64,000 nt of DNA from Solibacillus sp. FSL H8-0538 (GTDB lineage: Bacteria; Bacillota; Bacilli; Bacillales_A; Planococcaceae), in assembly GCF_038003525.1 (NCBI RefSeq), contig NZ_JBBOPI010000001.1:3502001-3566000 (forward strand). The letters run 5' to 3'. Position numbers and translations under genes: made by a program. Each line of letters opens with the position of its first letter. Positions within the stretch are counted from its first letter, which is position 1. Positions 59,616 through 62,643 of the stretch are shown piece after piece. The notes beneath the pieces are model-generated. The model did not search any database and was not told the origin of the DNA. It saw nothing but the letters and a program-made list of their open reading frames with translations.

Positions 59616-59641
59616 TGAAACTTATTTTGTAATTTTCCGTC
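59616..59641 (+). promoter_or_regulatory. ECF-sigma-type promoter of the deacetylase-sigma operon
   Basis: TGAAAC, exactly 16 bases, CGTC. This matches the TGAAAC-N16-CGTC consensus of SigM/SigV-like ECF factors and lies about 40 bases before the deacetylase start. With an ECF gene in the same operon, it suggests autoregulation. Confidence 0.6.
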
Positions 59642-59681
59642 GGTACGTTGCTTAAATTCAAGAAGCAATGTGGAGGACAAA

Positions 59682-60983
59682 ATGAAAAAATACGTTTATA
59701 TTACAATCTTAATCCTTTTTATAGGAAGTGTATTAATTGAAAGCTTAGGTTTACTAGATAATTTGGAAAGAGTAGAAGCAAATGAAAAAGAGTTCGAACA
59801 AGTTAAACATATGGAAATCGTGAAATCGATAAATATAATTCCTCAAACAAAGGAATTTGAACAAGTTGTGATTTTTAATGATCCTCAGCCGTTTTATATT
59901 AAAGAAGATTCACTCATAAAAATCGGACAACTTGAGCCGAATGTAGAATTTACGATTGTACAAGAAAAAGAGAATTTTTATGAACTACTATTTGGACATG
60001 TAACGGTCTATGTAGAAAAAATAGGCACAGTATTTCAAAAGAAATCACTAAAATCGATGATCAATACGGAAGTTAGTGGCGCAATTAAAACGACAGCTCA
60101 AACAATGGTCTATGAAGCACCAAACAACAAAAGTCCTCAACTATTACAACTTGATGTAGGCTTTCGTTATCCGATAGTGGGTCAAGTGGATGACTGGTTT
60201 CTTATAAAAGTGGGAGAACGATCGGGCTATATACATAAACAAACGGTTCAACTAGATGAAGGAATACCCGTGCTTGTGTACCATCACATTTTACCGAAAG
60301 CATTAATGAAGAAAACGACAAGTACGATATCTGCGGAATCTTTTGAACAGCAAATGGATTATTTAGCAGCCCATCAATTTAAGACGATTGGTTCACATGA
60401 AATGTATGAATACAAAGAAGGGCGAAAAATTTTACCTATCAATACGGTGTTAATTACATTTGACGACGGATTATTATCGACAAAAGAATATGCCTATCCG
60501 CTATTAAAAAAGCATCAATTTAGAGCAATTCAACATATTATTTCGTCCAGAACGCATCGCACAGAAGGCATTCAAACGTTTGATTCAGAAGGTAAATTAC
60601 AATTTTTCACGGAAGAAGAGATGGCAATCATGTCAGATGTCTTTATTTATGAGGCGCATACATTTGATTTGCACATTTTAAATGAAGAAACAAAGGTCGG
60701 TAAGCTAATGGAAGTATCTGCGGAAGAGTTAGAAGTAGACTTACGCAAAAACCTTGAAGAAATCCCAAACGCTATTTCTTTAGCTTATCCTTTTGGGCAT
60801 TATAAAGAAGAGACAATTGAAGTGATGAAAGACCTTGGTTTTTTACTCGGCTTTACTACGAAAACAGGATATGCGAATATGGAAGATCCCAACTATGAAA
60901 TCAAACGCTTTGGTGTGACAGAGGTCGTAATGATGGAAGAATTCATTAATTATGTACAAGGTGAGATGCTGTTTCCTGAATGA
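59682..60983 (+). CDS. Membrane-anchored/secreted polysaccharide deacetylase with SH3-like region (433 aa)
   Basis: N-terminal TM or uncleaved signal (MKKYVYITILILFIGSVLIE), an SH3b-like stretch (about 105-190, SGAIKTTAQTMVYEAPNNKS ... VDDWFLIKVGERSGYIH), and a C-terminal NodB domain: IPVLVYHHIL, VLITFDDGL (TFDDG), AHTFDLH (HxxxH-type metal ligands) and SLAYPFGHYKEETIE. Probable activity is deacetylation of peptidoglycan or another surface glycan. Start ATG 59682 has TGGAGGAC upstream. First gene of an operon with an ECF sigma factor, in the manner of the lysozyme-response PdaV/SigV systems. Confidence 0.9.
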   Translation: MKKYVYITILILFIGSVLIESLGLLDNLERVEANEKEFEQVKHMEIVKSINIIPQTKEFEQVVIFNDPQPFYIKEDSLIKIGQLEPNVEFTIVQEKENFYELLFGHVTVYVEKIGTVFQKKSLKSMINTEVSGAIKTTAQTMVYEAPNNKSPQLLQLDVGFRYPIVGQVDDWFLIKVGERSGYIHKQTVQLDEGIPVLVYHHILPKALMKKTTSTISAESFEQQMDYLAAHQFKTIGSHEMYEYKEGRKILPINTVLITFDDGLLSTKEYAYPLLKKHQFRAIQHIISSRTHRTEGIQTFDSEGKLQFFTEEEMAIMSDVFIYEAHTFDLHILNEETKVGKLMEVSAEELEVDLRKNLEEIPNAISLAYPFGHYKEETIEVMKDLGFLLGFTTKTGYANMEDPNYEIKRFGVTEVVMMEEFINYVQGEMLFPE

Positions 60984-61049: not shown

Positions 61050-61556
61050 ATGAAACATTTAGACACCATAATGAATGAGCATAGTCGTTACCTTGTCAGA
61101 ATTTCGTATCTGTATGTGAAAAATTGGGCGACCGCAGAGGATATTGTCCAAGAAGTGTTTGTGACCTATTTTCAAAAAAGCGAGCAGTTTAGACATGAAT
61201 CATCGTTAAGAACCTATTTAACAACGATGACAGCCAATCGCTCGAAAGATTATTTGCGTTCATGGAAACATAAAAAAGATGTATTATTTGAAACGATTTT
61301 CGCCAATTCAAACGGTGTAGAGCAATCTATTTTAGAGAAAGAACAGCTTGCAGAGTTAGAAAAAAAGATATTCCAACTACCCTTGAAATATCGAGAACCA
61401 TTAATTCTTTATTATTATGATGAACAATCAATTGCCGATATTGCATCCTATTTACAGCTCAATGAAAACACAGTGAAAACAAGGCTGCGTCGTGCAAAAC
61501 ACCAGATGAAGGAATTTTTCAATGAAGAGGAAATGGAGGGATGGCAGAGTGAATAA
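61050..61556 (+). CDS. ECF RNA polymerase sigma factor (168 aa)
   Basis: Region 2 is seen in YLVRISYLYVKNWATAEDIV and QEVFVTYFQKSEQFRHESSL, with the RTYLTTMTANRSKDYLRSWK end. Region 4 is ELEKKIFQLPLKYREPLILY followed by the helix-turn-helix SIADIASYLQLNENTVKTRL. Close in type to SigV/SigW/SigM-like factors of Bacillus. ATG 61050; its last eight bases overlap the next gene, the standard sigma/anti-sigma layout. Candidate target: the TGAAAC-N16-CGTC promoter at 59616. Confidence 0.93.
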   Translation: MKHLDTIMNEHSRYLVRISYLYVKNWATAEDIVQEVFVTYFQKSEQFRHESSLRTYLTTMTANRSKDYLRSWKHKKDVLFETIFANSNGVEQSILEKEQLAELEKKIFQLPLKYREPLILYYYDEQSIADIASYLQLNENTVKTRLRRAKHQMKEFFNEEEMEGWQSE

Positions 61557-62643
61557 ATTTAAAAATCAATTAGATAAAATGATGGGCGATACCGATTTGC
61601 AGGAAAAACAAATAAAACAACGTGTTCATGAAAGGATGGATTCATCTATTAAAAAGCGTTCATGGAGCATACCACTAGTGACGGCTGCTATGGTTGCACT
61701 GTCCTTCTTTCTCTTTATTACAATGAATCCATTCGAACAAGTTACATCAGATGAAGGACGATATATACCTTATGATCCACTTGATGATATGGTGGCTATT
61801 TCGACACTTCATAAGAAGAAGCTACTATCTATGATTGATTACGAGCAATTAGCAACACTACCATTGCTCGATTCATTATCAAGCTTGCAGTATGTTGACC
61901 CCGAGTCGTTCACAATTAATAATGCTGATTATCACACAGTTATTGAACGACAGCCGAATTTATTTGATGAGGTTGTATATGAGCCTGGCGATGTTGTTCG
62001 TACACTGACAAATACGAGTAGTCATCTTCCTATTTTTAACGATATTTATTATGAAGTCGCCGCTGTACCAGGAGACCGAGTCATGTTACGTGACGGAAAA
62101 TTAACAGTTAATGGTAAACGGCTAAATTCATCATTAATTCAGCAATATAAACAAAATGGAAATACGATTTTAGGAAGCTACGAACAAACATTAAACGCCC
62201 GGGAATATTTTCTTCTAAATCATTTTCCAGCAGAGCAAACTCTGCAGGCAGGGACGATAACACCTGTGCATAAAATTTTCGGAGAAGTCGTCGCGCTTGC
62301 TAATGAAAATTATACAGATACGATTTATTTTGAGAAAAAGGAAATTGCAAACAATGGCCTAGTTGGTGATTATGCGCCTGAAGAATATTTTGACCTGTAT
62401 TTATACGATGCTATTTTTGGTGAAGGTGAAATAGCACAGAACTTAACAGTAGAAAATGCGATCTTCCCTCATTCGAATAGACAAAGTGAATTATTCTTAG
62501 AGGCTGCTTATCGAACAGTAACGTATTTATCAAATGAGGAAGTCGAAATTCGTTATCAATATGGACGCGAGGGTGTAACCGAATATACATTCTATATGTA
62601 TAAAATGCCTAATTCAACAACTTGGAAATGGGGACTTAATTAG
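61549..62643 (+). CDS. Putative anti-sigma factor with inactive signal-peptidase (S26)-like external domain (364 aa)
   Basis: Start GTG 61549 (GGAGGGATGG upstream), overlapping the sigma stop by eight bases. Residues 1-38 are a charged cytosolic segment; 39-59 a TM helix (SWSIPLVTAAMVALSFFLFI); the rest is extracellular. About 140-250 follows signal peptidase I order: YEPGDVVRTL (box C), YEVAAVPGDRVMLRDGKLTV and NGK (box D), EYFLLNHF, then GTITPVHKIFGEVVALA. The Ser of box B, the Lys of KRVIGLPGD (here Tyr-Glu) and the GDNR of box E are all absent, so it cannot be catalytic. It probably holds the sigma factor inactive and senses an envelope signal. A non-sigma role is possible. Confidence 0.75.
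   Translation: MNKFKNQLDKMMGDTDLQEKQIKQRVHERMDSSIKKRSWSIPLVTAAMVALSFFLFITMNPFEQVTSDEGRYIPYDPLDDMVAISTLHKKKLLSMIDYEQLATLPLLDSLSSLQYVDPESFTINNADYHTVIERQPNLFDEVVYEPGDVVRTLTNTSSHLPIFNDIYYEVAAVPGDRVMLRDGKLTVNGKRLNSSLIQQYKQNGNTILGSYEQTLNAREYFLLNHFPAEQTLQAGTITPVHKIFGEVVALANENYTDTIYFEKKEIANNGLVGDYAPEEYFDLYLYDAIFGEGEIAQNLTVENAIFPHSNRQSELFLEAAYRTVTYLSNEEVEIRYQYGREGVTEYTFYMYKMPNSTTWKWGLN

Follow-up and report, generated by a model that had tools for sequence, protein, structure and literature searches.

We found that an open reading frame (ORF) of Solibacillus sp. FSL H8-0538 very probably encodes an anti-sigma factor that controls a surface-protein regulon and whose ectodomain is a dead type I signal peptidase of family S26. 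The ORF occupies positions 61549-62643 of the 64,000-nucleotide stretch analysed here (contig NZ_JBBOPI010000001.1, positions 3,502,001 to 3,566,000; hereafter the window). The observations behind this reading are the gene arrangement, the predicted fold, the loss of catalytic residues, the co-occurrence with a sigma factor of the extracytoplasmic function (ECF) type, and the association with a promoter and its regulon.

The outer part of the protein was confirmed to have a predicted S26 fold without catalytic residues, and this is a conserved feature. PF10502 (Peptidase_S26) was the only Pfam family matched at an E-value (E) up to 1, with E 5.3e-7 and 30.2 bits against a cut-off of 22.9 over residues 129-224. 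All 30 proteins of alignment A3, which comprises the window protein and 29 relatives, matched PF10502, as the only family at E up to 0.01. A whole-genome search returned two PF10502 members in the organism itself, a normal signal peptidase (1.9e-62) and ORF 61549-62643 (7.9e-7). With boxes and motifs named as is customary for signal peptidases, box D (YYE..AVPGDR) was clear from sequence, its PGD being retained in 30/30, and box C (GD[IV]VR) was recognisable. The original prediction had claimed boxes C, D and E alike. Comparison of the A3 profile with reference signal peptidases (hhalign) gave a probability of 95 and E 3.7e-8 but spanned 45 columns only, so box E rests mainly on structure and on a bridging set, alignment A4, described below. 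Searched against PDB sequences with phmmer, the single protein found a signal peptidase only at E 0.48, and the profile did so at E 0.004.

Loss of the catalytic Ser, Lys and GDNR, also predicted originally, proved general among the relatives. None of the 30 A3 sequences contained an S-M-x-P-T motif or a GDNR-like motif, and N[HRY]FP stood in place of the latter in every one. In type I signal peptidases the catalytic Lys precedes R-x-x-G-x-P-G-D and box E reads GDNR..S.DSR. The catalytic-Lys position was Tyr168 throughout A3, as against Lys in 13/13 reference signal peptidases, which come from related genomes and from the same class. All 13 carry Ser, Lys and GDNR without exception; they were chosen by an SM.PT and a GDNR-like motif, so that two of the three are invariant by selection and only Lys is unselected. 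Y167-Y168-E169 and N216-Y220 were invariant in A3. A peptide groove with one wall retained is possible.

Structure prediction, suggested with the original prediction as a check on the fold, returned S26 entries first and not an unrelated fold. The AlphaFold2 model built on A3 had a mean predicted local distance difference test score (pLDDT) of 77.8 and a predicted template modelling score of 0.72, with residues 30-48, 58-71 and 156-159 below a pLDDT of 50. In VIA-align, seven S26 entries ranked first with Z scores from 9.3 down to 8.0, including SpsB (Z 9.3, 119 aligned residues, 3.2 Å) and SipA (Z 9.1, 121 aligned residues, 4.5 Å). The top seven Foldseek matches were likewise all S26 (E 5.4e-4 to 4e-2). 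A second model, of the Caryophanon tenue relative (L078) on the 22 sequences of alignment A7, had a pLDDT of 80.7, matched SipA at Z 9.5 and SpsB at Z 9.3, and placed S26 entries at ranks 1-13; because all 22 sequences also belong to the 30 of A3, the two models are not independent. Towards the C-terminus there is probably an NTF2-like domain, tentatively assigned at Z 7.6 (3fsd, 82 aligned residues, 3.8 Å) and Z 7.0 in the second model, both below 8; the N-terminal part of PBP2a and PBP5 was a further match to it, at Z 5.7-5.8. The NTF2-like domain (residues 273-364), the conserved upstream deacetylase gene, the promoter and the surface-protein regulon all go beyond the original prediction.

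The protein also has the traits of ECF anti-sigma factors, being co-encoded with an ECF sigma factor and having a short cytosolic segment and one membrane helix. The ECF anti-sigma architecture originally proposed was thus upheld. The sigma ORF (61050-61556) and ORF 61549-62643 overlap by 8 bases, and the sigma gene lay immediately 5' of the anti-sigma gene in 30/30 loci (the window and its 29 relatives). The closest NCBIfam model for the sigma ORF was PRK09415 sigma C, with a score under the model's cut-off. The two predicted N-terminal helices had pLDDT values of about 55 in the first model and 64-74 in the second, making their helicity a low-confidence prediction. According to PMC7406223, a domain of fewer than 50 residues may be a class II anti-sigma domain, and the candidate domain here has about 40 residues with two low-confidence predicted helices. 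Just outside the membrane, residue 65 was L, F, I or V in 28/30 sequences and N in 2, residue 66 was S or T and residue 67 S or A in all 30, and the following G70 and PYDPL were invariant. N-terminal segments related to residues 1-90 were also seen on further ECF-adjacent membrane proteins (L047, L049 and L050) whose outer domains are quite unlike this one, an apparent case of sensor-domain swapping.

Distribution of the two genes was studied in 261 genomes of the Caryophanaceae, the taxonomic family of Solibacillus and Sporosarcina; a search at order level covered the same 261. Full-length anti-sigma relatives (at least 44% identity) were present in 51 of these genomes, the organism's own included, and the sigma factor at 65% identity or above was present together with them in exactly the same 51. 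The remaining 28 of the 79 genomes listed for the sigma factor showed at most 53% identity, and seven further family genomes held only partial or weak anti-sigma matches. The 29 relatives were obtained with an alignment query, a single-protein query having given none, and their loci belong to Solibacillus, Metasolibacillus, Bacillus ndiopicus, Sporosarcina and Caryophanon. A search of 398 genomes of the class gave no match outside the family; the seven that matched, again including the organism's own, all belong to it.

Both genes lie in an operon headed by an ECF-type promoter of the form TGAAAC-N16-CGTCNGTA. Upstream of the operon or of the sigma gene, TGAAAC-N16-CGTC followed by NGTA was found in 28/30 loci; the other two (L071 and L072) had only the core TGAAAC-N16-CGTC. 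Across the organism's own genome, TGAAACT-N15-CGTCNGTA gave two exact matches and one match with one mismatch, and the reversed control gave 0. The exact sites were the operon promoter and a site at C2:158244, before an S-layer-homology (SLH) ORF of 141 amino acids. At the latter site (L167:1562-1987) the SLH-protein ORF is seemingly truncated, and nearby on the opposite strand is another ORF, which we take to be transposase-like. The one-mismatch site (L168) was set aside: it follows the end of an ORF, and downstream of it the stretch has no ORF of at least 80 amino acids on the same strand.

The promoter followed the sigma/anti-sigma pair across genomes. All 31 genomes tested with the pair, drawn from the 50 others having both genes, contained at least one site, giving 123 sites in total against 3 for the reversed control. 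By contrast, 33 genomes tested of the 210 without the pair gave 2 sites and 1 control match. In the genus with most of the pair-bearing genomes (g17), four tested genomes without the pair (G183, G204, G223 and G232) had no site.

Downstream genes were defined, in 90 stretches surrounding non-operon sites, as the closest ORF of at least 250 amino acids that is on the same strand and starts within 260 bases of a site. These stretches held 97 site occurrences, repeats and operon sites among them, which yielded 69 distinct ORFs and 2 repeats; for 26 occurrences there was no such ORF. SLH domains were found by Pfam in 50 of the 69 distinct proteins. Other domains, with some overlap, were BspA-type leucine-rich repeats (10), SH3 (6), SLT (5), acyltransferase (4) and polysaccharide deacetylase (2). 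A simple hydropathy test, its threshold chosen by us, showed a hydrophobic N-terminal segment in 66/69. SLH genes also lay 3' of the anti-sigma gene in several Sporosarcina loci.

Inspection by eye placed BspA-type leucine-rich-repeat surface proteins behind the promoter in Solibacillus- and Caryophanon-type genomes (L199, L210, L214, L219, L220, L281, L282, L284, L285 and L287). Acyltransferases were seen behind it in L249, L262, L266 and L283, an SGNH domain occurring in 3/69 proteins; possibly these enzymes modify the cell wall or wall polymers. An SH3/polysaccharide deacetylase homologue preceded the sigma gene in 24/30 loci. In the window, this first gene of the operon matched the NCBIfam PgaB/IcaB models under their cut-off, and its start was taken as the ATG at 59682, which has GGAGG 5' of it, the mechanical ORF beginning at 59670. 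Deacetylases behind the promoter elsewhere were noted by eye in L233 (G168) and L261 (G203), genomes in which the operon promoter stands directly before the sigma gene with no deacetylase gene between. The deacetylase gene thus seems to remain in the regulon after leaving the operon. Coordinates at the locus, where the Pfam scan covered four proteins near ORF 61549-62643, are collected in Table 1.

Table 1. Features of the operon and of the anti-sigma-like protein (positions in the window)
Feature	Positions	Strand	Basis
ECF-type promoter of the operon	59616..59645	+	-35 TGAAAC (59616-59621), 16 bases, -10 CGTC (59638-59641), then GGTA
Exported SH3 + polysaccharide deacetylase (PgaB/IcaB-like), first gene of the operon	59682..60983	+	PF01522 E 5.8e-11, PF08239 E 8.4e-7
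ECF sigma factor, region 2 + region 4	61050..61556	+	PF04542 E 3.8e-14, PF08281 E 4.4e-14 (Pfam)
Anti-sigma-like membrane protein with pseudo-signal-peptidase ectodomain	61549..62643	+	GTG start, GGAGG 5' of start; 364 residues
Cytosolic N-terminal segment, residues 1-40, candidate anti-sigma domain	61549..61668	+	two predicted helices, 3-12 and 15-30, low confidence (model)
Single transmembrane helix, residues 41-59	61669..61725	+	hydropathy; sole hydrophobic segment of the 364-residue protein
Conserved juxtamembrane segment, residues 65-80	61741..61788	+	[LFIV]-[ST]-[SA], then G70 and PYDPLDD; 30-sequence alignment
S26 / type I signal-peptidase fold with catalytic residues lost, residues 112-255	61882..62313	+	VIA-align of two models
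Tyr168 at the catalytic Lys position	62050..62052	+	Tyr in 30/30
NHFP (residues 224-227) in place of GDNR	62218..62229	+	N[HRY]FP in 30/30
Probable NTF2-like C-terminal domain, residues 273-364	62365..62640	+	VIA-align, tentative

Several results weigh against this reading of the protein and its regulon. Residues 1-75 were modelled poorly. The would-be Ser segment forms a hairpin (114-133) in the model, and its columns 122-128 are variable in A3, which weakens the peptide-binding step. Inside the window, the short core TGAAAC-N16-CGTC did not exceed chance: it had 6 matches with one mismatch allowed, against 3.2 expected, and 7 of 100 shuffles reached 6. Several genomes with the pair had only a single site, for example G064, G065, G067, G068, G151, G152 and G207. 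Sites of the TGAAACCGAC type in G167, G181, G193, G197 and G217 had no ORF of at least 250 amino acids behind them; they are likely a conserved sequence of another, unrelated locus and were retained in the count of 123. The 26 of 97 occurrences without a qualifying ORF also count here, at least 4 of them being operon sites, and the 69 downstream genes include one integrase, one FapA-like and one PMT_2 protein. The organism's own genome has 77 SLH matches against two exact promoter sites, one of them before the seemingly truncated SLH ORF. Most SLH genes there thus seem to lie outside the regulon.

In the mechanism proposed here, the short N-terminus, predicted to be helical, would keep the sigma factor held at the membrane. 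Outside the cell, the dead S26 fold and the NTF2-like domain would take up an envelope signal and relay it across the single helix. The relay would probably consist of exposure of a juxtamembrane cleavage site, followed by proteolysis and release of the sigma factor. Free sigma factor would then act on TGAAAC-N16-CGTCNGTA promoters, those of its own deacetylase-sigma-anti-sigma operon and of exported surface-protein genes, above all S-layer-homology genes. Sigma sequestration, signal reception by the ectodomain and proteolytic release are the parts that we infer.

The original prediction had left open whether the signal-peptidase fold is a substrate mimic, a decoy or a peptide-binding sensor. 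Of these we favour the sensing of peptides or pre-proteins, with a confidence that is low to moderate; binding of an exported peptide or pre-protein in the groove of the dead peptidase is a tentative suggestion, falling somewhat short of an even chance. A further step, which we consider rather unlikely, would make the protein a sensor of secretion load. The groove would shield the protein's own juxtamembrane [LFIV]-S-[SA] site or bind pre-proteins, and the state of signal-peptide traffic, or a missing surface-layer protein, would determine whether the anti-sigma factor is cut by a true signal peptidase and S-layer-protein genes are turned on. If this is true, a pseudo-enzyme regulates the access of its own active relative.

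The original prediction had also drawn an analogy with RsiV and lysozyme, and this fared less well. Statements here on published systems follow the portions of the cited papers that were available. RsiV of Bacillus subtilis is, like the present protein, a single-helix anti-sigma factor with a ligand-binding ectodomain, made with its own sigma factor, but its ectodomain consists of DUF4163/DUF3298 and binds lysozyme (PMC5014341). Membership of the RsiV group was rejected, as Pfam at E up to 1 matched PF10502 only, with no DUF4163, DUF3298 or DUF4179. The regulon is moreover mainly one of S-layer-homology and other surface proteins, although the operon does contain a polysaccharide deacetylase. 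In RsiP of Bacillus thuringiensis, SipP cuts at V-Q-S close to the membrane (PMC8844934). RsiP shares with our protein its nature as a membrane anti-sigma factor of an ECF sigma factor; it is cut outside by signal peptidase at V-x-S, and the conserved residues 65-67 offer a comparable small-residue site here. It differs in responding to beta-lactams through PbpP and in its regulon, and the available text mentions no S26 ectodomain (PMC8844934). By analogy with the RsiP cut, a signal-peptidase site at residues 65-67 is a reasonable lead, no more.

These comparisons suggest a variant that is compatible with the preferred reading, in which the ectodomain senses a wall insult (lysozyme, beta-lactam or damage), a true signal peptidase cuts first and the S26 fold is a peptide-free scaffold. 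We regard it as a serious contender, although on balance we lean against it. We presume that the product of pdaV is a deacetylase. A polysaccharide deacetylase gene heads the operon here, and pdaV lies in the csfV-rsiV operon (PMC5014341). Residues 65-67 fit a small residue at -1 and a mostly aliphatic or aromatic one at -3, like V-Q-S of RsiP (PMC8844934). SLT transglycosylases (5/69) and acyltransferases (4/69) among the downstream genes speak for wall sensing too, as does the resemblance of the NTF2-like part to penicillin-binding proteins noted above. Set against it are the absence of any RsiV domain in the Pfam search and the predominance of SLH genes downstream, which are not known lysozyme or beta-lactam resistance genes.

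The protein might instead be a positive partner of the sigma factor, or a chaperone of surface-protein assembly co-transcribed with it, as SipA of Streptococcus pyogenes would suggest. SipA is a dead signal peptidase required for pilus assembly (PMC4049620), and it was the best or near-best structural match; like the protein studied here, it has a signal-peptidase fold without Ser and Lys. A regulon made up mainly of surface proteins would suit such a role. We nevertheless find it improbable. A short cytosolic end and a single helix suit anti-sigma factors, other ECF sigma genes are adjoined by genes for related S26 proteins that have different N-termini, and co-occurrence with the sigma factor was complete (51/51). 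SipA differs further in being a pilus assembly factor with a strongly conserved peptide cleft (PMC4049620), one wall of which is variable here. With SpsB and the other active type I signal peptidases, the likeness is confined to the fold of residues 112-255 and the PGD core, the Ser motif, Lys and GDNR being lost here in 30/30. Equally improbable is the view that a different ECF sigma factor of these genomes reads the promoter and governs the SLH regulon. TGAAAC and CGT elements are common to the ECF promoters of Bacillota, and the number of window shuffles reaching the short-core count fits that view. However, the extended motif heads the anti-sigma operon in 28/30 loci, and it was missing or single in the 33 tested genomes without the pair, the four of g17 having none. 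We consider it very probable that the protein is an anti-sigma factor whose ectodomain is a dead S26 domain and which controls this regulon.

Starting from a weak match at locus L048, we found a separate set of degenerate S26 proteins, matched in 80/261 family genomes at E 1e-5, a count that also includes N-terminal-only and weak cross matches. Five of these proteins tested against PF10502 gave E 4e-15 to 2e-22. In alignment A4, of 13 such proteins, the Lys position was Ala (5) or Gly (8), so that Lys was lost in 13/13; the Ser position was still Ser in 4, and DS[RK] in box E was retained in 11/13. Unlike ORF 61549-62643, proteins of this set (for example L048, L093 and L099) stop after the S26 part. 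Profiles of A3 and A4 aligned over residues 1-256, covering the N-terminus and the S26 part, with a probability of 95.8, and A4 aligned with the reference signal peptidases with a probability of 99.5. This bridge supports an S26 origin of the ectodomain.

In the 30 distinct loci of this second set (38 minus repeats), a sigma ORF adjoined the gene in 9, a lipoprotein signal was found in 7, both in 0 and neither in 5; in the other 9 no ORF bearing the motif searched for was picked up by the script. The pattern GSD[SAGN]MDRG ... RVVGLPGE ... VDQWWRGTDSR was noted across the set in family and class genomes (L048, L083-L101 and L137-L154). Some of its S26 domains follow either of two dissimilar N-termini and are encoded next to ECF sigma genes; others belong to lipoproteins, for which no neighbouring sigma gene was found. 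One ECF-adjacent S26-type protein (L101:1314-2468, minus strand) has an insert of about 100 residues between the membrane helix and the S26 part.

Among the entries listed in searches of the open literature there was no published S26 anti-sigma factor, nor any case of SLH proteins under ECF control. In RsiV and RsiP, site-1 cleavage is the work of signal peptidase (PMC5014341, PMC8844934), whereas here a dead signal peptidase would itself be the sensor. That degenerate S26 domains turn up again, both on further anti-sigma-like proteins and on lipoproteins, points to a sensor module that can be reused. The system brings a pseudo-enzyme sensor within reach of direct tests, and it would provide the surface-layer-type genes of Caryophanaceae with an ECF switch of their own, acting at a defined promoter.
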